The notes beneath the pieces were generated by a model. That model saw only the letters and a list, made by a program, of their open reading frames with translations, made no database searches and was not told the DNA's origin. Below are positions 53,980 through 64,000 of a stretch of 64,000 bases of DNA, one piece after another (position 1 is the first letter of the stretch; each line of letters begins with the position of its first letter). The stretch spans positions 186,001 through 250,000 of the forward strand of contig JAFWNM010000012.1 in NCBI GenBank assembly GCA_017510335.1, read 5' to 3'. A program made the position numbers and the translations under genes. The DNA is from Paracoccaceae bacterium. GTDB taxonomy: Bacteria; Pseudomonadota; Alphaproteobacteria; Rhodobacterales; Rhodobacteraceae.

Positions 53980-54663
53980 TTGGTTCGGATTTCGTTCGCA
54001 GTATTTTCAGTGATTCTAATGATTTGGGCCGTCTATCACGCGCGCGCGGAATTTGTCGCAAGTCAGGAAAGACAGATGACCCAGGCTGCCTTCGCGGTCA
54101 GGTTGATGAACCAGAGTGACGACGCGCCCATCACGCTTGTGGCTGCAAATGCCGCACTTAGCCAGCGCGAACAGATGACCATGTGTTTTGATAGCCAGAT
54201 TTACGGCGTTTACGCGGCGCTGCCAGCAGGAACGCGCCGGTCCATGGCGGAACTGTGCCTGGAGCGCGCGCAAGACATCTTGCGGGCTGCACCGACGCGG
54301 TCGGTCGCCCATATGGCGGCTGCAGTGTCCCTGTGGCGTCTGGGTGAACCAGAAGCCGCAACGCAGGCGTTGCAACGCGCGCAAGACACTGGACTGTTTG
54401 AAGGTTGGCTGTCGTCGCGGCGTTTGCAGCTTGCAGTCTCCATGGCGTTTGAGGAGGCTGCTTCACTGGAACCAAAAGACGATATTCTGGTTGTTGCAGT
54501 GCCGGAATTTGAAACTCTGCTCAGTTCGGGGCCTTTGACGGATGATCTGGTTGAAATATACCAGTCCCATCCGCGCGCCAGAGAATGGTTCATCCAAACG
54601 CTGGAAACCCTTCCGGCGCAACAGCAACAACGGTTCATAGTTCGGCTTCGTGCAGCTGGTTAA
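53980..54663 (+). CDS. Membrane-anchored TPR-like protein of polysaccharide operon
   Basis: A 227-residue protein with one N-terminal membrane helix (VRISFAVFSVILMIWAVYHARAEF) and a helical periplasmic body; LERAQDILRAAPTRSVAHMAAAVSLWRLGEPEAATQALQRAQDTGLFEGWL is like a tetratricopeptide pair. I do not recognise a named family. TTG 53980 is the probable start, preceded by AAGAAAGG. It lies 29 bases before the Wzy/ligase-like gene in the same direction, so it probably assists polymerisation or export. Confidence 0.7.
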   Translation: MVRISFAVFSVILMIWAVYHARAEFVASQERQMTQAAFAVRLMNQSDDAPITLVAANAALSQREQMTMCFDSQIYGVYAALPAGTRRSMAELCLERAQDILRAAPTRSVAHMAAAVSLWRLGEPEAATQALQRAQDTGLFEGWLSSRRLQLAVSMAFEEAASLEPKDDILVVAVPEFETLLSSGPLTDDLVEIYQSHPRAREWFIQTLETLPAQQQQRFIVRLRAAG

Positions 54664-54692
54664 GGTTATGGTTCTGTCCCGGGGGACGCGTA

Positions 54693-56183
54693 ATGATTGA
54701 TTTCGACAAACGGCGGTCCACCGCATCCGAGCGCATTGCCAATCGCGCAGAAGCGGCCAGACAGGAAGACAGCCTGACCATGGAATTCGAGGAAATCGCC
54801 CTTCAGCATTCCAACGGGGACCGTGCGGTGCACGGGACCGCTGGTCGGCGCATCAACGACGTTGCAGGCTGGGCCTTGATTGTCTTTCTGGCAATTGCGC
54901 CTATTCCGCTTGCATCGGCGCGGCCGGTATTCTGGCTGGCGTGGTCTGTTTTGCTGTTTCTGACACTCGCATGTTATATGCTGGCCATGCAGCTTGCAGA
55001 ACCGGGGCGCAAGCTGGCGGTGCTGCAGGTCTGGCCGTTGCTTGGCGCGGCCGCGCTGCTGCCGGTCGCGGGGGGTGTGCAATACTTCCTTGCCATGTCC
55101 GGGGCGCGCACCGAATTTGCGGGCCACGCTGTGCCCTTGGGCAGCATCGTGCCCGAAGCGACCTTGATTGCGGTGATCCGCCTGCTTGGATTGCTGGCGC
55201 TTTTCATTCTTGCCTATGAAGTGTCGACGCGCGCACAGCGCGTTTCACGCATGGCGTGGGCCTTGTTCGCAATCATTCTGGCGCATGGGCTTTGGGCCAT
55301 TATTGCGCTGATATTTCTGGATGATTTCGTCATCTGGGGTGAAAAAATCGCCTATGAGGGGGTGGCCACCGGCACTTTCGTAAACCGCAATTCCTTCGCC
55401 ACGTTCATGGGTATGGGGCTGGTTGCCGGGGTCTGCCTGATCATGGAGCGCGCGCATCGGCCGCATGTCCGCCACCCCAGCGGCAGCACATGGCTTAGCG
55501 AAACCAATATCGAACTGGCCGCGCTATGGGGGGCTGTGGCAATCATTGCGCTGGCGCTGGTTCTGACCCAGTCCCGGATGGGGGTTTTCGCCGGTTTCGT
55601 GGCGGCATGGTGCGGTTATATCGTCATGAGCCTGAAATATCATGATAGCATTTCAAGGGTCATCTTGCGCGGGGCGGCGTTGTCGCTGGCGGGGGGGGTG
55701 GTCTTCCTGACCAGTTTCCAGACGGGTGTGCTTGAACGCGGTGTTCTTGTCAGCACTGCCTCGGATGTCCGCACGGACCTGTATCTGCAGGTTCTTTCAA
55801 TGATTCGCGAAGCACCTTTTGGGGGCACCGGGCTGGACAGTTTCGCCGCTGCGTATGAGTTGGTGCACCGCCCGCCGGTGTCCAGTGCGCTGATATGGGA
55901 TCTGGCGCATTCCACCTATCTGACGTGGTGGCAGGAAGCCGGTCTCATCATCGGAAGCCTGCCCATCGTTATTTTGTGTGCTGCTGCAGTCAGCCTTGTC
56001 AGGACAATCCGGCGGCGGCGCACGAATTATGTGGCCCCTGCGATTGGCCTTGCCGCGATCGTGCTGGTCGCGCTTCATTCGCTTGTGGATTTCAGCATGG
56101 AAATACAGGCCAATGCGATGGTATTTACCGTTATTCTGGGCATGGCGCTTGGGCGTTTGCGCCGCAAAGAAGACAGGTCCTGA
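54693..56183 (+). CDS. O-antigen polymerase/ligase-like membrane protein (Wzy/WaaL type)
   Basis: A 496-residue polytopic membrane protein. After a 60-residue cytoplasmic N-terminus it has about 10-12 membrane helices (WALIVFLAIAPIPLASARPVFWLAWSVLLFLTLACYML...) and the Wzy_C/O-antigen ligase type loop: GTFVNRNSFATFMGMGLVAGVCLIME (about 218-243) and TQSRMGVFAGFVAAW, then a large periplasmic region (GTGLDSFAAAYELVHRPPVSSALIWDLAHSTYLTWWQEAGL). It would polymerise or transfer polysaccharide repeat units. Its stop overlaps the phosphatase start (TGATG). Confidence 0.87.
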   Translation: MIDFDKRRSTASERIANRAEAARQEDSLTMEFEEIALQHSNGDRAVHGTAGRRINDVAGWALIVFLAIAPIPLASARPVFWLAWSVLLFLTLACYMLAMQLAEPGRKLAVLQVWPLLGAAALLPVAGGVQYFLAMSGARTEFAGHAVPLGSIVPEATLIAVIRLLGLLALFILAYEVSTRAQRVSRMAWALFAIILAHGLWAIIALIFLDDFVIWGEKIAYEGVATGTFVNRNSFATFMGMGLVAGVCLIMERAHRPHVRHPSGSTWLSETNIELAALWGAVAIIALALVLTQSRMGVFAGFVAAWCGYIVMSLKYHDSISRVILRGAALSLAGGVVFLTSFQTGVLERGVLVSTASDVRTDLYLQVLSMIREAPFGGTGLDSFAAAYELVHRPPVSSALIWDLAHSTYLTWWQEAGLIIGSLPIVILCAAAVSLVRTIRRRRTNYVAPAIGLAAIVLVALHSLVDFSMEIQANAMVFTVILGMALGRLRRKEDRS

Positions 56184-57016
56184 TGGCTGGATTTCTGAAG
56201 GGGGTATTCGGACAGCGGCGCACGGCCGCATCGTCTGATCCTGACAGGGGGGCAGTGACGGGCACGGCGCCGCGGATTTTATCGTTAAAGCAAATGCCTG
56301 CCGCAGTTTACGCTATTGGCGATGCGCACGGGTGCAATGCACTGTATCGCAAACTGGAACATGACATCGTAAACGATGCCGAGGCGTCAGGCATCACAGG
56401 CCCGAAGCTGATTGTCGTTTTGGGGGATTTCGTTGATCGCGGGCCAGACAGCGCGGGGTTGTTGCGCCACCTGCTGGACCCGCCCCCCCCCGGTTTCCAG
56501 CGAGTTGTGTTGCGCGGAAACCACGAAGACATGATGCTGGCCTTTTTGCAAGACCCGGCCCCTGCGCGCCAGTGGTTGCACTTCGGCGGGACCGAAACGC
56601 TTGTGTCCTATGGCATGCATCCGGACCCCGAACATGGTTTTGCACGGCCTGTGCGACATTTGAAACAAATGCTTGATGCGACGATACCCGCAGCACATCG
56701 CGAGTTTTTGACGAAACTGCCCTATGGCCTGTCAGTGGGGGGGTATTTCCTGTGCCATGCGGGCATTGATCCGGCGCGCAGCCTTGCGCACCAGCGCCCC
56801 GAAGATCTGCTTTGGGGGGGCGGGGACAAAATCGATGCGGCCGCAGGCACCTTCCCTGTCATTGTTCATGGCCATGTCATCACTGAAGATGTGCTTTTGA
56901 CTTCAAAACGCATAAACGTTGATACGGGTGCTTATGAAAGTGGCAAATTGTCCGCAGTGCGGCTGGTAGAGGATATGCCGCCAATTGTGCTTTCCGTCGG
57001 GGGCATTCCTGTTTAG
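56183..57016 (+). CDS. PPP-type metallophosphatase (calcineurin-like)
   Basis: A 277-residue phosphatase of the calcineurin-like superfamily, similar to bacterial Ser/Thr PPP enzymes. The metal and catalytic motifs are all present: GDAHG (about 47-51), GDFVDRGPDS (about 81-90), RGNHEDMM (about 113-120), HAGI (about 198-201) and VHGHV (about 233-237). ATG 56183 overlaps the polymerase stop. A phosphatase sits directly before the BY-kinase gene, where a Wzb-type tyrosine phosphatase would be expected. Its substrate (BY-kinase or another protein) is inference. The longest frame from 55895 lies inside the polymerase gene and is not used. Confidence 0.87.
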   Translation: MAGFLKGVFGQRRTAASSDPDRGAVTGTAPRILSLKQMPAAVYAIGDAHGCNALYRKLEHDIVNDAEASGITGPKLIVVLGDFVDRGPDSAGLLRHLLDPPPPGFQRVVLRGNHEDMMLAFLQDPAPARQWLHFGGTETLVSYGMHPDPEHGFARPVRHLKQMLDATIPAAHREFLTKLPYGLSVGGYFLCHAGIDPARSLAHQRPEDLLWGGGDKIDAAAGTFPVIVHGHVITEDVLLTSKRINVDTGAYESGKLSAVRLVEDMPPIVLSVGGIPV

Positions 57017-57053
57017 AGAGTGAGTGCAAAGAAATTCATTGAGGCCAGACGAA

Positions 57054-59192
57054 ATGAAGACGGTTCGCGAAAGCCAGTTTGAGAATATGGAAGTTGAAGA
57101 CACGATCGATCTGCGGGCGATCATTTCCATGTTGCGGCGACGTTTGAAAATTATTCTTTTTTCCGTTGCCATTATCATGAGTGTGGCTTTCATCTATCTG
57201 GCCCAGACAACGCCCCTATACACATCGCGGGCACTGGTTCTGGTGGATACTGCGCAAAAGAACCTTCTGCAGCCCGGTCCGGAAGGGGGGCAGAACGCTT
57301 CGCTGGCGTCGTCAATCATCGAAAGCGAAGTTGAGTTGCTGCGCTCTGATACAGTGCTTCTGGAACTGATATCTGCAAGCAGCTTGATGCAGGACCCCGA
57401 ATTCGGTCCATCGCTGTCCCTTACGGACAAGGTGCGGCAGGCAGTGGGAATGGGCGTCACAGAACGCTCTGGCGACGCGCTTTTGAATTCCACCTTGTCA
57501 AAGCTGCGCGCAGCGGTATCTGTGCGCCGGCGGGGGCTTACAAACCTTATTGAGGTGTCCATCACATCTGCGAATCCGCAGCGTGCGGCTGATTTGGCCA
57601 ACACCTTGATCGAAGTGTATATTGACCTTCAGGTGGCTGCGAAATCCGAAGGGTACCTGACCGCGACTTCGGTTCTGAGCCGTCAGATGGATTCCGCCGA
57701 AGCAGCGCTTGCGCGGTCCGATCAGGCGCTTGCCGATTTCATTGATACCAATATTGACGCGCTGGAACGCGAAAGCGGTTCTGCATCCGTCGCGCGTTTG
57801 CGCCAGCGGCTGGAAGACCTGAACTCCAGCCGGCTGGAAGCGCAAACCCAGATCGAAGCCAGCACACTTGCGCTGGAACGGCAGGATTGGTCCACCCTTG
57901 CCTCCCAACTGGAGGCCGAGGGCCTGAGCGCGCTGGAAACCCAGCGTCAAGCGCTTGCCAGCCGACTGGGCGAGGTTCAGGATGGCAGCCCCATAGCCGT
58001 TAACCTGCGCTTGAGTCTGGACAACATAGAGCGCCAGCTTGAACAGCAGGGGCGCTTCGCTGTCGCATCTTTGCAAGAGGAAACACAAAGCTTTCAGCGT
58101 GACGCCGAAGAAGTGCGCGAAAACATCCGGCGCGAATTGCTGGGCGGCGAGCTTTCGGCTGAAACCCTGTCGCGGATTTACGGATTGCAACAGGAAGCCG
58201 CAATTGCACAACGGCAGTATAACACGTTGCTGAACCGTATTCGTGAACTGGAAACCCAGGCCATGGTGCAGATTGCCGATTCGCGCATGGCGTCTGCTGC
58301 AATCGCGCCGAATCGCAAGTCCTTTCCCAACACACGCCTTGTTCTGGCGGCCGCTTTCGTGGTGTCGCTGGGGCTTGGGGTCGGCCTTGCCTTTTTAAGC
58401 GAATTTTATTTCGGTGGCGTCAATTCGTCTACGCAATTGTCGAATGTGACAGGGGCGCGCGTTGGGGCTGTCGTGCCCAGAATCTCGCAATCCGGTGACC
58501 AATTGTCGGTTGCGGATATTATCGCAGAAGCGCCGATGTCACAATTTCCCGAAGCGATGCGCCGTTTGCGGGCCAATATCGAACGGTTTTCCCCTGCACC
58601 CAAACGCGGCGTTCCTGTCATCATGGTCACATCTGCCGTTCCCGCCGAAGGGAAATCCGTTCTGGCACTGTCACTGGCGCGGACCTTGGCTGCGGCGGGA
58701 AAGCGCACATTGCTGATCGACGCGGACATGCGCAAGCCGTCGATGCACAAGTTGACCGGGGTGGAGTTGTCGTCGGGGTTGTATGAATTCCTGGTATCCG
58801 GTCAGGAAAGTGAAGCTGCGGCCGATTGTTATGATTTTGACCCGCGCAGCGATGTAGGCATCATCTTCGGGCGCGAAAGGTCCGGCCAGCCCACTGACCA
58901 GTTGGTTCAGTCCGAAGCGTTCCGTGCTGTCATCGATGATGGGTGCAAGCGTTTTGATGTGGTTATCATCGATACACCGCCGCTTATTCCTGTGGTGGAT
59001 GCGCGCTATATCGCCATGCAATCGGATTGCGCGATTTTCTGTGTGCGTGCTGGCGAAACGAGTCAGTCAGATGTCCGCTTCGCCCATGAGCAGCTGGTCG
59101 ACTACATGAGCGAGGACGCCGCCGTGCTGGCGGTGCTGAACTTCCATGTCGGTCAGGAAAGCGACACGCGCTATTCGGGTTATTATTACTGA
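57054..59192 (+). CDS. Polysaccharide co-polymerase/BY-kinase (Wzc/ExoP type)
   Basis: A 712-residue inner-membrane protein controlling polysaccharide chain length. Wzz domain with first membrane helix near residue 37 (IILFSVAIIMSVAFIYLAQTTPLYTS), a long periplasmic coiled coil (about 190-400) and second helix (LVLAAAFVVSLGLGVGLAFL), then a cytoplasmic BY-kinase: Walker A AVPAEGKSVLALSLA (Lys534), A-prime LLIDADMRKPS, Walker B FDVVIIDTPPL. It ends with a tyrosine cluster, SGYYY, the autophosphorylation tail. ATG 57054 with GAGG 9 bases upstream is chosen over GTG 57024. It follows the phosphatase by 37 bases. Confidence 0.93.
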   Translation: MKTVRESQFENMEVEDTIDLRAIISMLRRRLKIILFSVAIIMSVAFIYLAQTTPLYTSRALVLVDTAQKNLLQPGPEGGQNASLASSIIESEVELLRSDTVLLELISASSLMQDPEFGPSLSLTDKVRQAVGMGVTERSGDALLNSTLSKLRAAVSVRRRGLTNLIEVSITSANPQRAADLANTLIEVYIDLQVAAKSEGYLTATSVLSRQMDSAEAALARSDQALADFIDTNIDALERESGSASVARLRQRLEDLNSSRLEAQTQIEASTLALERQDWSTLASQLEAEGLSALETQRQALASRLGEVQDGSPIAVNLRLSLDNIERQLEQQGRFAVASLQEETQSFQRDAEEVRENIRRELLGGELSAETLSRIYGLQQEAAIAQRQYNTLLNRIRELETQAMVQIADSRMASAAIAPNRKSFPNTRLVLAAAFVVSLGLGVGLAFLSEFYFGGVNSSTQLSNVTGARVGAVVPRISQSGDQLSVADIIAEAPMSQFPEAMRRLRANIERFSPAPKRGVPVIMVTSAVPAEGKSVLALSLARTLAAAGKRTLLIDADMRKPSMHKLTGVELSSGLYEFLVSGQESEAAADCYDFDPRSDVGIIFGRERSGQPTDQLVQSEAFRAVIDDGCKRFDVVIIDTPPLIPVVDARYIAMQSDCAIFCVRAGETSQSDVRFAHEQLVDYMSEDAAVLAVLNFHVGQESDTRYSGYYY

Positions 59193-59370: not shown

Positions 59371-61635
59371 ATGCACATTGTCATTGTCGAAGATCATCCC
59401 ATGATCCTGCAGGTGCTGACAGCCGCTCTTGCTGCGATTGCCGATTACACGGTTGAGGGGTGCAGTTCTGCCGCCGCCGGAATAGCGGCCTGCCGCAACG
59501 GGGCCGATCTGGCGATATTTGATTATCGTCTGCCTGACATGACAGGCACAGATGCAGTCAGAATTCTGCGCGACGATCCGCTGACGCGGCATTTGCCCAT
59601 CATCATGATTACCGGCGACAATGATGCGCGCACGCGGCTGGAGGCCATCAAGGCGGGCGCCACCGATTTTTTGCAAAAGCCGGTGAATATTGATGAATTT
59701 CGGTTGCGCGTCCGGAACCTGCTGGCGTTGCATGATGCGCAGAAAACATCTGAAGAACGCGAAAGATTGTTGGAAACCGTGATCGCGGCAGCCGGTGCCT
59801 GTATTGCGGTCGCAGATGCCCGCGCCCCCGAAACCCCGATCCTGTTCGCCAGTGATGCATTGGCAAAGTTCACAGGCCGCCACATCCATGACCTTATTGG
59901 CAAGGATCCGCTGCAATTCTTGCAAGAAGATGCAGGGTCCCCCGTTCTGCGCGACATCGAAGCGGCCATCACGGCGCGTCAATCCGGAAGCTGCAGTATC
60001 GAACTGAAACGGTCCGACGGCGCGCGGTCCTGGACGCAGGTGACCCTGCGGCCCGTGCCGGATACGGGCAAGCAGGCGCGCTTTCTGGTTATCACGTTAA
60101 GCGATATATCGGATATGGTTGAAATTCGTGCGGCCCATGACAAGCTTGCAGCAAGGATGAGCGACATCGCCCGCATCAGTGGCGCATGGTTTTTCGAGAT
60201 CGATGACGCCTGCTGCTTGTCCTATGTCTCCGAAGCGATGGCCACCGCGCTCGGTGCTTCTGCGGACATGGTTCAAGGGGTGCATGTTGACCAGCTTGGG
60301 GGGCGCTTTGCGTCGCCTGCGCGCAAGGGCCAGCCCCTTAGCACGCTTTTCGGCGCACCGTTCCATCCTGTCGAAAATGAATTGCTGACCTTCCGTCTGC
60401 TTGATGGTCAGGTTCGCGCAGTGCAGGTCAGTATCGTGCCGTTCAAGGATGCAGACGGGCAGTTCGCGGGGTATCGCGGTTATGCGGGCGATGTCAGTGA
60501 CATTGCGCAGGCGCGTGACGCTGCCGCACGTGCCAGCAGGGCGAAATCAGCGTTTCTTGCCACCATGAGTCACGAGATGCGCACCCCCCTGACAGCTATC
60601 ATGGGGATGTCGGAACTGCTGACCCGCGACAGCACCGACCCCGACCAACGCGCCAATCTGGGCATGATTACCGATGCCGCGATGAACCTTTCCGATGTGC
60701 TGGGCAATTTGCTGGATGTCGCAATAATGGAAAGCGGCACTCTTGGGCTGAATACCGCAGAGTTTGATCCGGTTCTTGCGTTGGACCGGGCGACGCGCAT
60801 CCATCGTCAGGATGCGCAGGCCAAAGGTCTGTCATTTGATTGTCGCATTGAAGGGGCCGCGCGTGGGGTGCGGTTGGGCGACGGGGCGCGGGTGCGTCAG
60901 ATTATCCATCATTTGCTGTCCAACGCCGTCAAGTTTACCCCGCAGGGGGCCGTTAGCGTTGTTCTGGATTTGCACAAGGTTGACGCGCTGACGCTAACCG
61001 TCACGGATACAGGCATAGGCATGCGCCCCGAGGAACTGGAGGCGGCGTTTCAACCCTTTCTGCAAGCCGATGATGGAATCGCCCGCCGCTATGGCGGCAG
61101 TGGTCTTGGGCTGAGCATTGCGCGCTGGTTAAGCAACGCCATGAATGGCAGCTTGCGACTGGACTCGCATTTTGGGAAGGGAAGCACGGCCACACTGACC
61201 TTGCCGTTGCCGCAAACCAGAAACACGCAGGTCGATGCCGATGACATCAGTCTTCACGGGCACCATGTGCTTGTCGCCGATGACAATCGCGCCAATCGTA
61301 AAATTCTGGATGTGATGCTGCGCAAGATGGGGGCCGATGTCACATTATGCGCAGATGGACAGGAAGCGATCGGGTTATGGAAAACGCAGCCCTTCGACCT
61401 GCTTTTGCTGGATATCAACATGCCAGAGGTGGCGGGAACTGATGTCATGCGAAATGTGCGCGAAACCGAAGCGCAGCGCGCCGCGCCGCCGGTGCCAGCA
61501 CTTGCTGTGACTGCGAATGCCATGCCCGATCAGGTCGCGCATTACCTGGAGGTGGGGTTTGACGGATGCGTGGGAAAACCTTTCACCCGCGCGGCCCTTG
61601 CCTCTGCGCTGCGACATGTCCTTCATCATGGGTGA
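59371..61635 (+). CDS. Soluble hybrid histidine kinase (receiver-PAS-PAS-HK-receiver)
   Basis: A 754-residue cytoplasmic signalling protein without membrane helices. N-terminal receiver (1-120; acidic pair Glu7-Asp8, phospho-acceptor Asp51 in FDYRLPDMTG, FLQKP), first PAS (about 140-250), second PAS (about 262-380), HisKA with His401 in FLATMSHEMRTPLTAIMG, HATPase_c (LLSNAVKFTPQG, VTDTGIGM, GGSGLGLSIA), and C-terminal receiver with Asp681 in LLLDINMPEV. The two receivers and lack of an output domain suggest a phosphorelay hub. It starts 178 bases after the BY-kinase gene and may regulate it; no Hpt protein is adjacent. Confidence 0.9.
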   Translation: MHIVIVEDHPMILQVLTAALAAIADYTVEGCSSAAAGIAACRNGADLAIFDYRLPDMTGTDAVRILRDDPLTRHLPIIMITGDNDARTRLEAIKAGATDFLQKPVNIDEFRLRVRNLLALHDAQKTSEERERLLETVIAAAGACIAVADARAPETPILFASDALAKFTGRHIHDLIGKDPLQFLQEDAGSPVLRDIEAAITARQSGSCSIELKRSDGARSWTQVTLRPVPDTGKQARFLVITLSDISDMVEIRAAHDKLAARMSDIARISGAWFFEIDDACCLSYVSEAMATALGASADMVQGVHVDQLGGRFASPARKGQPLSTLFGAPFHPVENELLTFRLLDGQVRAVQVSIVPFKDADGQFAGYRGYAGDVSDIAQARDAAARASRAKSAFLATMSHEMRTPLTAIMGMSELLTRDSTDPDQRANLGMITDAAMNLSDVLGNLLDVAIMESGTLGLNTAEFDPVLALDRATRIHRQDAQAKGLSFDCRIEGAARGVRLGDGARVRQIIHHLLSNAVKFTPQGAVSVVLDLHKVDALTLTVTDTGIGMRPEELEAAFQPFLQADDGIARRYGGSGLGLSIARWLSNAMNGSLRLDSHFGKGSTATLTLPLPQTRNTQVDADDISLHGHHVLVADDNRANRKILDVMLRKMGADVTLCADGQEAIGLWKTQPFDLLLLDINMPEVAGTDVMRNVRETEAQRAAPPVPALAVTANAMPDQVAHYLEVGFDGCVGKPFTRAALASALRHVLHHG

Positions 61636-61763: not shown

Positions 61764-62273
61764 ATGACCGGATTTGCACGTTTTTTCATCCCAGTCTTGA
61801 TGGCTTTTTCCGCCAGTGTTGCGACGGCACAGCAGATTGAACAGCCACAAGATACTGTTCTTCTGACGATTTCGGGAGAAGTCTCGGTTACCAATGCGGA
61901 CGACACCGCGCTGTTCGATCTGGCGATGCTTGAAGCGCTTGATCAGCATGTTACTGATGTGGAAACACCCTGGCATGACGGGCCGCAGCAGTTCACTGGC
62001 CCGCGCATTATCGACTTGCTGAACGCAGTGGGCGCGGCGGGGTCCGAGCTGCGTTTTGTGGCAATCAACGACTATGCCGCGAATATGCCCTGGGGCGATA
62101 TCGAAGCCTTTGACGTGATTCTGGCCACACGCCAGAACGGCGAAACAATGTCCGTGCGCGACAAGGGGCCGCTGTTTGTAATCTATCCCTTCAACCAGAA
62201 CCCCGAATTGCGCAACGAAGTGTATTACGGGCGTTCGGTCTGGCAGGTGAAAGAGATTCAGGTGCTTCCGTGA
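61764..62273 (+). CDS. Secreted molybdopterin-oxidoreductase-fold (SUOX-like) protein without cysteine
   Basis: A 169-residue exported protein. Signal peptide MTGFARFFIPVLMAFSASVATAQ, then a domain related to the oxidoreductase molybdopterin-binding fold (COG3915-type: LLTISGEVSVTNADDTALFDLAMLEAL, GPRIIDLLNAVGAAGSELRFVAINDYAANMPWGDIEAFDVILATRQNGETM, GPLFVIYPF, YYGRSVWQVKEIQV). The protein has no cysteine at all, so the molybdenum-binding cysteine of true enzymes is missing and it is probably not a redox enzyme. The stop overlaps the GTG of the next kinase gene, pointing to a ligand-binding partner. Confidence 0.8.
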   Translation: MTGFARFFIPVLMAFSASVATAQQIEQPQDTVLLTISGEVSVTNADDTALFDLAMLEALDQHVTDVETPWHDGPQQFTGPRIIDLLNAVGAAGSELRFVAINDYAANMPWGDIEAFDVILATRQNGETMSVRDKGPLFVIYPFNQNPELRNEVYYGRSVWQVKEIQVLP

Positions 62274-64000
62274 AACTTCCACGACGCCATCCCGCAAGCT
62301 TCTGGCGAGATCGTGTTGGCGTCGTTTTCCTAAGTATTGTTGCGCTTCTCTCGGTGCTTGCCGCTGGCATGCTGTTTTCGCGTCTTCTGGACACGGAACG
62401 AGAGATGGATTCCATCGTGCGCGAAGATGCAATGTGGGCCGTGTTCCAGTCCGACAGGCATTTGCGGACGCTGGAAAGCCTGGCCTTCGTGATTGTTGAA
62501 ACAGGCGAGGCAAAATACCACGACCGTTTCGTGCAGAATTACGACATCTTGTATAGTCGTGTCAGCCTGCTTGATGGCGGCACTTTCTTTCTGGACCTTA
62601 GCGGGGATGGTGCCCTGTCCCGGCGCGTCGTTGAATTTAACCGCACGATAAGGGGCTTGGCGCCGCGCATTGACGCACTTGTGCCAGCATCACAGGACTA
62701 TCTTCCAGAGATTTCGCTCCTCGCGGCAGAACTTCGGGATCTGGCGCAATTGTCAAACGACCTTGTTCTAGGGGCAAATGCGGCAATCAATGTCATGCGC
62801 GTGGGGGACAGGGCGTTGCGGCGCGAAATACAAGATCAGCTTGCAATGCTGGCGCTGGTCTTGATTGTAGCGTTTCTGGGCATTTTTGCACTGCTGATGA
62901 CGCAGCTGCGACGGATTGGCAAATCAAACCGCCACATGGCCTTGTTACAGGAACGTAGCCGCCGACAAGCCCAGCGTGCACAAGCGGCCAGCCGTGCGAA
63001 ATCGGCGTTCCTTGCCACCATGAGTCATGAAATTCGCACACCATTGAACGGAATCATCGGGTCGGCTGATCTGCTTTCGCTGGCGTCCATGCCGCCCCAA
63101 CACATGCGACGCCTGGACACGATCCGGGCCTCGGCAGCGCTGTTGCGTGATCTGATCGATGGCATTCTGGACTTTTCCAAGCTGGAATCGGGCGCATCAG
63201 ACGGGCGCTTGGCGGAAATCGACCTTGATGATCTGGGTGACATCATGATCCGGGCCTTCGCGGATCAGGCGCATGAAGCAGGGTTGACGCTGAGTGTGGA
63301 CATGCCATCGGGCCGAATTGTGACAAATGACTCACGCTTGCGGCAAGTCATGATAAACCTGATTGGAAATGCGATCAAATTCACGCCGCAAGGGCGCGTG
63401 CAGGTGCGTGGCGTCATACAAGGCGACACGGTCCTGCGTATCGAGGTCGAGGATGACGGTATCGGCATCGCAGAAGAAGACATGCCGCGCCTGTTTCGGG
63501 AGTTCAGCCAGCTGGACGGATCTTTTTCGCGCAAATATGGTGGCAGTGGCCTGGGGCTGGCGATTTGCAAGCGGATTGTCGACGGCATGAACGGCAGGAT
63601 CGGGGTCCAAAGCAAGCTGGGCAAGGGAAGCTTGTTCTGGTTCGAAATACCTGTTCAAGAAAACACCGCTTTAGAAGACGAAAAAACCGAATTGCGGGAT
63701 GTTGTTGGCCGGTCAATCCCTGAAAAAGTGCTTCATGTTCTTGTCGTGGAGGATAATGAAGTTAATTTGGATGTCATGAAGGGAATTCTTGCACATCTTG
63801 GTCATGACTGTTCCGAGGCGCGAAACGGGCATGATGCGGTTGCCTTCTTGCAAAATATTGTCCCCGATATTGTTTTGATGGACATGCAGATGCCCGTCAT
63901 GGACGGCGTGGACGCGACACGCCGCATTCGCGCGATGGGGCTGACTTTGCCCATTATCGGGGTCACGGCGAATGCGTTTTCCGAGGATCGCGACGCCTGC
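62270..64000 (+). CDS. Membrane hybrid histidine kinase, 3' end outside window
   Basis: At least 577 residues; the frame is open at the right edge. Domains: membrane helix near residues 15-38 (VGVVFLSIVALLSVLAAGML), periplasmic sensor (about 40-185) of no family I recognise, second helix near 190-212 (LAMLALVLIVAFLGIFALLM), HisKA with His253 in FLATMSHEIRTPLNGIIG, HATPase_c (NLIGNAIKFTPQG, VEDDGIGI, GGSGLGLAICKRIV), and a receiver with Glu494-Asp495 and phospho-acceptor Asp538 in VLMDMQMPVMDG. A C-terminal Hpt domain could follow. GTG 62270 overlaps the upstream stop (GTGA). Confidence 0.9.
   Translation, partial: MKLPRRHPASFWRDRVGVVFLSIVALLSVLAAGMLFSRLLDTEREMDSIVREDAMWAVFQSDRHLRTLESLAFVIVETGEAKYHDRFVQNYDILYSRVSLLDGGTFFLDLSGDGALSRRVVEFNRTIRGLAPRIDALVPASQDYLPEISLLAAELRDLAQLSNDLVLGANAAINVMRVGDRALRREIQDQLAMLALVLIVAFLGIFALLMTQLRRIGKSNRHMALLQERSRRQAQRAQAASRAKSAFLATMSHEIRTPLNGIIGSADLLSLASMPPQHMRRLDTIRASAALLRDLIDGILDFSKLESGASDGRLAEIDLDDLGDIMIRAFADQAHEAGLTLSVDMPSGRIVTNDSRLRQVMINLIGNAIKFTPQGRVQVRGVIQGDTVLRIEVEDDGIGIAEEDMPRLFREFSQLDGSFSRKYGGSGLGLAICKRIVDGMNGRIGVQSKLGKGSLFWFEIPVQENTALEDEKTELRDVVGRSIPEKVLHVLVVEDNEVNLDVMKGILAHLGHDCSEARNGHDAVAFLQNIVPDIVLMDMQMPVMDGVDATRRIRAMGLTLPIIGVTANAFSEDRDAC

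Follow-up and report, generated by a model that had tools for sequence, protein, structure and literature searches.

The window, by which we mean the whole stretch of 64,000 nucleotides analyzed here, encodes near its end a small exported protein directly ahead of a membrane-bound hybrid kinase. What does the small protein bind, and which partners would receive the signal from the kinase? The initial annotation read the arrangement as a two-part sensor, with a former enzyme fold binding a ligand and passing the signal on to the kinase. On the basis of sequence, structure models, and analogy with Agrobacterium, it is highly likely that the pair is a pterin sensor of the PruR-DTB type, whose signal is relayed through the REC and Hpt domains of the kinase to partners encoded in the same gene block. 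Pairs of PruR with a DTB kinase are a kind already published in a 2026 review (PMC13259868, used here in its available part), and >5500 PruR pairs are in print. The sensory role first proposed agrees with a known class, which by analogy would include this pair; the initial annotation neither named the ligand nor recognized the class, and the finding is less new than it first seemed.

Identity of the exported protein and its kinase

The features of the locus are as follows.

59371..61635, + strand: gene for a 754-aa kinase with domain matches in the order REC-PAS-HisKA-HATPase-REC, upstream of the pair and part of the block in the window's clade
61764..62273, + strand: pruR, ATG start, 169 aa, predicted exported, cysteine-free SUOX-fold protein of the PruR family (periplasmic pterin-binding protein)
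61764..61829, + strand: likely signal peptide, residues 1-22 (ending ATA before Q), from the translation, by eye
61971..61973, + strand: W70, Trp near the place of the Mo-ligating Cys in SUOX enzymes
62067..62075, + strand: N102-D103-Y104, containing the named pterin-site residues N102 and Y104
62241..62243, + strand: W160, pterin-associated Trp
62270..62273, + strand: GTGA, the 4-nt stop/start overlap of pruR and the kinase gene, from the sequence
62270..64000, + strand: 5' part of the gene for a DTB-type hybrid kinase, GTG start; the full gene encodes 741 aa and its stop lies 495 nt beyond the window (L005:4496)
62435..62461, + strand: WX7H (W56...H64), in the place of the WX7E of DcpA/DTB periplasmic domains, by alignment
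63026..63028, + strand: H253, phospho-accepting His in the SHEIRTP box, from sequence and domain match

The small protein begins with an export signal, MTGFARFFIPVLMAFSASVATA-Q, as read by eye. A search of PDB sequences produced four matches at E values up to 0.1 (7kos, 7rkb, 7kp2, and 7kom), all to PruR or putative pterin-binding proteins: 7kos matches with an E value of 2e-41, the entry names of 7kos, 7rkb, and 7kp2 read pterin-binding or putative pterin-binding, and 7kom is titled PruR in the fold search. An AlphaFold2 model built from 30 sequences has the SUOX fold with a mean pLDDT of 92.2, with lower confidence for residues 1-20. It matches 7kos and 7rkb with a TMt of 0.95-0.96 (rmsd of 0.8-1.2 for 7kos), and the Foldseek ranking places PruR crystal structures first and sulfite oxidases much lower. 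Judged by sequence and predicted fold, the small protein is PruR, a periplasmic pterin-binding protein; the initial annotation had already recognized a secreted protein with a fold like that of molybdopterin oxidoreductases.

PruR is described in the available part of the review as an exported protein of ~170 aa that carries SUOX motifs, with a Trp replacing the Mo-ligating Cys (PMC13259868). The pterin-site residues named there for Agrobacterium tumefaciens PruR are N102, Y104 (Tyr/Phe), and W160 (PMC13259868). These three residues carry the same numbers in the window protein; along with W70, they do not vary among the 30 family proteins aligned, of which the window protein is one. The Trp that replaces the Cys is presumably W70; alignments by hhalign with two SUOX proteins from the window's own genome covered only the stretch after the replaced position. 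Over the structural alignment, the window protein is ~47% identical to A. tumefaciens PruR (PDB 7kos/7kou) and has the same fold. Thus, going by these residues and by analogy, it very probably binds a small pterin.

The kinase gene begins within the pruR stop codon region, as had been noted from the start. Its product has the domain order TM, helical periplasmic domain, TM, HisKA, HATPase, REC, and Hpt, of which the Hpt domain is a marginal match (26.3 bits versus a cut-off of 24.6). Two membrane spans enclose a periplasmic part of ~145-150 residues by eye, consistent with the ~145 residues of the earlier estimate. Residues 1-232 are predicted to form long helices (mean pLDDT 91.9). TorS is the best NCBIfam match of the part of the kinase inside the window, with 339.6 bits, below the cut-off of 676.5. 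The nearest solved folds of the sensor domain are those of NarQ (best E value 8.8e-3) and, lower, of QseE and other kinase sensors, all of them weak matches; a profile search of the PDB with this domain returned chiefly coiled coils and designed helical proteins.

Two types of partner are reported to follow pruR in the available part of the review: DcpA, a GGDEF-EAL protein, or DTB, a kinase most like TorS/BaeS (PMC13259868). DTB stands for DcpA-TorS-BaeS, and an example pair there includes Ruegeria pomeroyi WP_011045932.1 (PMC13259868). Judged by its position directly after pruR, its predicted helical periplasmic domain, and its TorS/BaeS-like kinase part, the window kinase is a DTB-type partner. 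The published PruR-DTB systems, of which the R. pomeroyi example can be likened by description only, have in common with the window pair an exported, cysteine-free SUOX-fold protein of ~170 aa, the residues N102, Y104, and W160, and a next gene encoding a membrane kinase with a DcpA-type periplasmic domain. The window pair differs from them in having WX7H rather than WX7E and a kinase that ends in REC and Hpt domains, and at its locus two further kinases and a LuxR-type regulator are part of the block. The PruR-DcpA system of A. tumefaciens (Greenwich et al. 2024, as cited in the review) likewise has an adjacent membrane partner, but DcpA is a GGDEF-EAL enzyme with direct c-di-GMP output, whereas the window partner is a kinase.

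In pairs of the TorT-TorS type, a periplasmic binding protein docks on the helical sensor domain of a hybrid kinase. These pairs work in the way proposed for the window pair, but their binding-protein fold is unrelated, and the window pair is not a member of that group.

The following mechanism may be proposed. After export to the periplasm, PruR would bind a small reduced pterin in its SUOX-type pocket, which lacks the Mo-cofactor cysteine, and the cell's PruA-like reductase is the probable source of this pterin. With pterin bound, PruR would then dock on the helical domain that the kinase exposes in the periplasm, thereby changing kinase activity, and phosphate would pass from the kinase, by way of its REC and Hpt domains, to proteins encoded in the same block. 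The most likely target would be the LuxR-type response regulator encoded 3.8 kb downstream, the receiver domain of the upstream kinase, or both. For Agrobacterium PruR, pterin binding, periplasmic location, and PruA-dependent docking on DcpA are reported in the available part of the review (PMC13259868); by analogy, we infer pterin binding by the window PruR and its docking on the window kinase, as well as the direction and target of the signal.

A supply of pterin is plausible. The window genome encodes, outside the window, a PruA-like pteridine reductase (L036:1492-2271, on G000 C36) with both the TGX3RXG and YX3K motifs. Its closest counterpart in an Agrobacterium genome, L125, is 42% identical and scores 181 bits, as against 64 bits for the next match there; L125 is probably pruA itself, judging from the score and not from a name. 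Against the FolM-type model NF005066 (E. coli FolM) the reductase scores 98.8 bits, well under the cut-off of 249. A search of the window genome produced no match to FolE1; FolE2 is present, and the pterin precursor can therefore be made.

Motif change, missing cysteine, and linkage

WX7E is reported in the available part of the review for the vast majority of partner periplasmic domains, although not as an absolute criterion (PMC13259868). The window kinase has WX7H where this criterion for a DTB partner calls for WX7E. In a 123-row alignment that mixes kinase and DcpA types and includes some misread frames (such as L062, L119, and L122), the last motif column contains E in 101 rows, D in 9, H in 6, S in 3, Q in 2, N in 1, and a gap in 1. 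The H rows are the window and five of its nearest relatives (L128, L129, L044, L045, and L046); in L047, which belongs to the same PruR clade, the motif ends in N. H is also found in 13 of 13 further loci of the genus, defined as places scoring >170 bits in the PruR search. Because it carries WX7H, the window kinase is filed as a variant DTB kinase, WX7E not being absolute and other rows departing from it too.

A rival reading is that the pair is PruR-DTB by descent and that direct docking was lost in the window's clade, so that PruR acts on another partner or the pair needs the second kinase. The presence of WX7H in the window, in five of its nearest relatives, and in all 13 genus loci would fit such a loss, as would the extra kinases present in many of these loci. 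We nevertheless consider it improbable: the order pruR-kinase is kept in 13 of 13 genus loci, the pocket residues are intact, and residues other than E occur elsewhere too in the alignment (the D, S, Q, and N rows, a few misread frames among them).

Less probable still is a genuine molybdoenzyme of the sulfite oxidase/YedY kind that uses another ligand and whose redox product the kinase senses. Its Pfam Oxidored_molyb match is marginal (24.4 bits; cut-off 24), and it shares its overall fold with these enzymes (Foldseek E values of ~1e-6 to 1e-3). However, it is shorter than they are and lacks their metal-ligating cysteine, PruR is nearer than any enzyme by both sequence and fold, and the strong SUOX-type matches of the genome (180, 173, and 125 bits) are other genes. 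Moreover, the truncated PruR site is described in the available part of the review as likely unable to hold Moco (PMC13259868). An enzyme function is not expected, and the identification of PruR as a molybdoenzyme was rejected on the grounds that the Mo-ligand cysteine is missing and PruR structures are nearer.

The translation bears out the earlier remark that all 169 residues are free of cysteine. Taken alone this is a weak sign, for about one protein in five of this length would lack cysteine if it made up an assumed 1% of residues. It gains weight because none of the 30 family proteins examined, the window's included, has a cysteine after residue 25, and the same is true of 74 of 80 named PruR relatives. 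The remaining six have a single cysteine, either in the place of S158 (L060, L064, L100, and L101) or just past the helix near residue 90 (L065 and L067). These positions are away from the expected metal-ligand site; the cysteine in the place of S158 is two residues ahead of a conserved Trp. On this evidence the absence of cysteine is a trait of the PruR family.

A PruR match is present in 111 of 198 genomes of the family set, the window's own included. We sampled 49 family loci besides the window, 29 from the best-scoring genomes and 20 taken as every fourth of ~80 next places among ~120 remaining, the sample thus reaching through the stronger two thirds of these. The two counts proposed with the initial annotation, of adjacent kinases and of missing cysteines, both come out in its favor: a kinase is encoded by the next gene in most of these loci (43 of 49; the others are L143, L147, L150, L158 on a 3-kb contig, L173, and L174). 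In the named set, made up of the 80 top-scoring loci among at least 590 confirmed for PruR, the next gene encodes a kinase in 57, a DcpA-type GGDEF-EAL protein in 19, and neither in 4. Of these four, L061 is cut off by the edge of its contig, a kinase or DcpA gene follows ~1.2-1.3 kb further along in L119 and L122, and L062 is without one. One genome is common to both sets (L051 has the coordinates of L130). That a PF00174-like protein merely happens to precede a kinase has a negligible probability: hybrid kinases are common and short proteins often lack cysteine, but the linkage counts (a kinase or DcpA-type protein next in 76 of 80 named loci and a kinase in 43 of 49 family loci, across many families) refute it.

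Several loci depart from the usual arrangement. L147 and L150 (the same loci as L026 and L029) form a clade of two family loci in which pruR is without a kinase after it; the gene that follows is, we presume, SelO/YdiU. Eight genomes of the window's genus have two divergent PruR-like frames on opposite strands, with the matched parts ~0.4-0.7 kb apart (G207:C23, G229:C56, G220:C196, G222:C48, G223:C220, G227:C126, G204:C264, and G205:C211), apparently a second PruR arrangement unlike that of the window. PruR is described for Proteobacteria in the available part of the review (PMC13259868). Two metagenome bins, either of which may be misbinned, contain PruR-kinase loci with other labels: L065, on a contig labeled Verrucomicrobia, has two PruR-kinase pairs in tandem, and L115 is labeled Deltaproteobacteria (Myxococcota in the tree label).

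The gene block in the window's clade

The end of the DTB kinase gene is overlapped by 4 nt by a gene for a 1242-aa kinase with GAF/PAS domains, which is followed by a gene for a 207-aa receiver-LuxR-type regulator, 3.8 kb downstream. The full block thus consists of the receiver-kinase, pruR, DTB kinase, PAS-kinase, and LuxR-type regulator genes. Besides the window, 7 of 20 close loci have it complete, with gene order and strand unchanged; the others hold parts of it.

Among the 13 genus loci, the receiver-kinase is directly upstream on the same strand in 9; of the other four, L196 and L202 lack it, L201 has it inverted next to the contig edge, and L200 is at a contig start. The PAS-kinase follows in all 9 genus loci with sequence extending more than ~0.4 kb past the DTB kinase, and 8 of these 9 have the LuxR-type regulator, on the same strand in 6. 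Among the seven other close loci, the upstream kinase is present in five (not in L045 or L062), and the PAS-kinase and regulator are present in two (L044 and L045); neither of the latter genes was found in the 3.9-6.8 kb of sequence available for L046, L047, and L129.

The LuxR-type regulator is a candidate output. A receiver-LuxR regulator occurs within 5 kb of the pair in 33 of 49 family loci, in 22 of them divergent and upstream at a distance of at most 500 nt, and LuxR-type HTH matches number only six across the 3.6 Mb of the window genome. In a regulator tree that includes only two regulators from outside PruR neighborhoods, the window's regulator lies among PruR-neighboring regulators (93/82, not a starred fork). 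However, similarity alone is no proof of partnership, because a paralog in the same genome scores 186 bits, inside the range of 166-238 bits of the family-set matches listed. This paralog is a receiver-LuxR regulator at G000:C40:77247-77414 (L178); the GGDEF match of that contig is 5.4 kb away. With a paralog present and two other kinases in the block that could drive the regulator, its assignment to the DTB kinase is a guess.

In the PruR tree, the window's clade is placed beside a Devosia locus with an HD-GYP protein, apart from the main group with LuxR regulators. A phmmer search with the receiver of the upstream kinase returned, after receivers of its own kind, those of HD-GYP proteins from L049, L051/L130, L101, L123, L100, L108, and L053 (54-84 bits). 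No other receiver of that set scores above 49 bits, and a receiver elsewhere in the window genome scores 51. The HD-GYP receiver of L118 scores only 37 bits, and that of L115 is absent among the 34 best matches listed. The ranking favors a swap in which the receiver domain passed from an HD-GYP protein to the kinase; the receiver tree does not settle the matter.

Just upstream on the same strand are exopolysaccharide genes, encoding a Wzy-like ligase (54585-56183), a metallophosphoesterase, and a Wzz/Wzc-type chain-length protein (57024-59192). The frames at 54585-56183 and 55895-57016 overlap by ~290 nt, and one start is probably later. PruR-DcpA controls polysaccharide adhesins. None of the 20 close loci (3-18 kb each) has a match of >40 bits to these genes, and a link between them and the pair was dropped on that account.

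Neighbors elsewhere and possible outputs

The targets of PruR-DTB kinases are unstated in the available part of the review, in which the terms "response regulator," "phosphorelay," and "LuxR" are also absent (PMC13259868). Among the papers listed in searches of the accessible literature, no other is devoted to this PruR and a few name it in passing. An unrelated Pseudomonas regulator is also named PruR. What appears to be new here is the change to WX7H in one clade, the multi-kinase block, and the phosphodiesterase and LuxR-regulator neighbors.

A Pfam-confirmed receiver-phosphodiesterase is encoded within 360 nt of the pair in 16 of 57 kinase-type named loci. It is a REC-HD-GYP protein in L049, L051, L053, L100, L101, L108, L115, and L123, and a REC-EAL protein in L048, L076, L083, L089, L097, L114, L117, and L120. 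The EAL protein encoded in L055, at a contig end, shows no receiver match. Within 2.5 kb, kinase loci L069 and L090 have a GGDEF-EAL protein and a receiver-free GGDEF protein, respectively, and in family locus L168 a GGDEF-EAL protein is encoded 115 nt behind the kinase. No phosphodiesterase neighbor was found within 2.5 kb in any of the 19 DcpA-type loci (single-sequence queries, >40 bits). By Fisher's test, 16/57 versus 0/19 gives a one-sided p of 0.005, a value that ignores kinship, 7 of the 19 DcpA rows being near-copies from Agrobacterium/Rhizobium. Mapped onto the PruR tree, the 17 rows with a phosphodiesterase (counting L055) require 9 changes of label, of which starred branches force 6. 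The neighbor is absent in 41 of 57 kinase-type loci.

The background for this share is partial and consists of counts in a few genomes: 1-11 HD-GYP matches per genome in six genomes, 14-24 EAL matches in each of five Halomonas-type genomes, and 26 EAL matches in a Chromobacterium genome. Because EAL matches are so abundant, a lone EAL neighbor is weaker evidence than an HD-GYP neighbor. In Devosia sp. YR412 and Rhizobium sp. FKL33 (G241 and G244), the HD-GYP neighbor is the only HD-GYP match of the genome, which makes a genetic test simple.

Other neighbors are also found. In a Hydrogenophaga-type clade (L056, L077, L084, L085, L091, and L111), a receiver-CheB gene is directly upstream of pruR-kinase on the same strand, which suggests a link to chemotaxis; with CheB instead of a phosphodiesterase in these six loci, partners differ by lineage. 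In the Halomonas-type loci L055, L076, L083, L089, L097, and L120, an OmpR-type regulator is encoded divergently from pruR, in addition to the EAL protein that follows the kinase, and is a competing candidate partner.

Because phosphodiesterase neighbors occur in kinase-type but not DcpA-type loci, c-di-GMP breakdown may be the final output of some DTB kinases, as it is for DcpA. The output of the window block may be a transcription factor; the window genome has three GGDEF matches. Tentatively, and with the odds rather against it, we propose that in several lineages PruR-DTB is a phosphorelay form of the DcpA pterin-to-c-di-GMP switch that acts through a neighboring REC-HD-GYP or REC-EAL protein, and that in the window's clade a receiver-kinase has come to occupy the phosphodiesterase slot, with a LuxR-type output and a change from WX7E to WX7H.

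The neighbors described here are testable partners of DTB kinases: in several lineages these are receiver-phosphodiesterases, in the family of the window a LuxR-type regulator, and in the Hydrogenophaga-type clade a receiver-CheB. If the proposal is true, pterin sensing would reach c-di-GMP in two ways, through an enzyme fused to the sensor or through a kinase and a separate enzyme.
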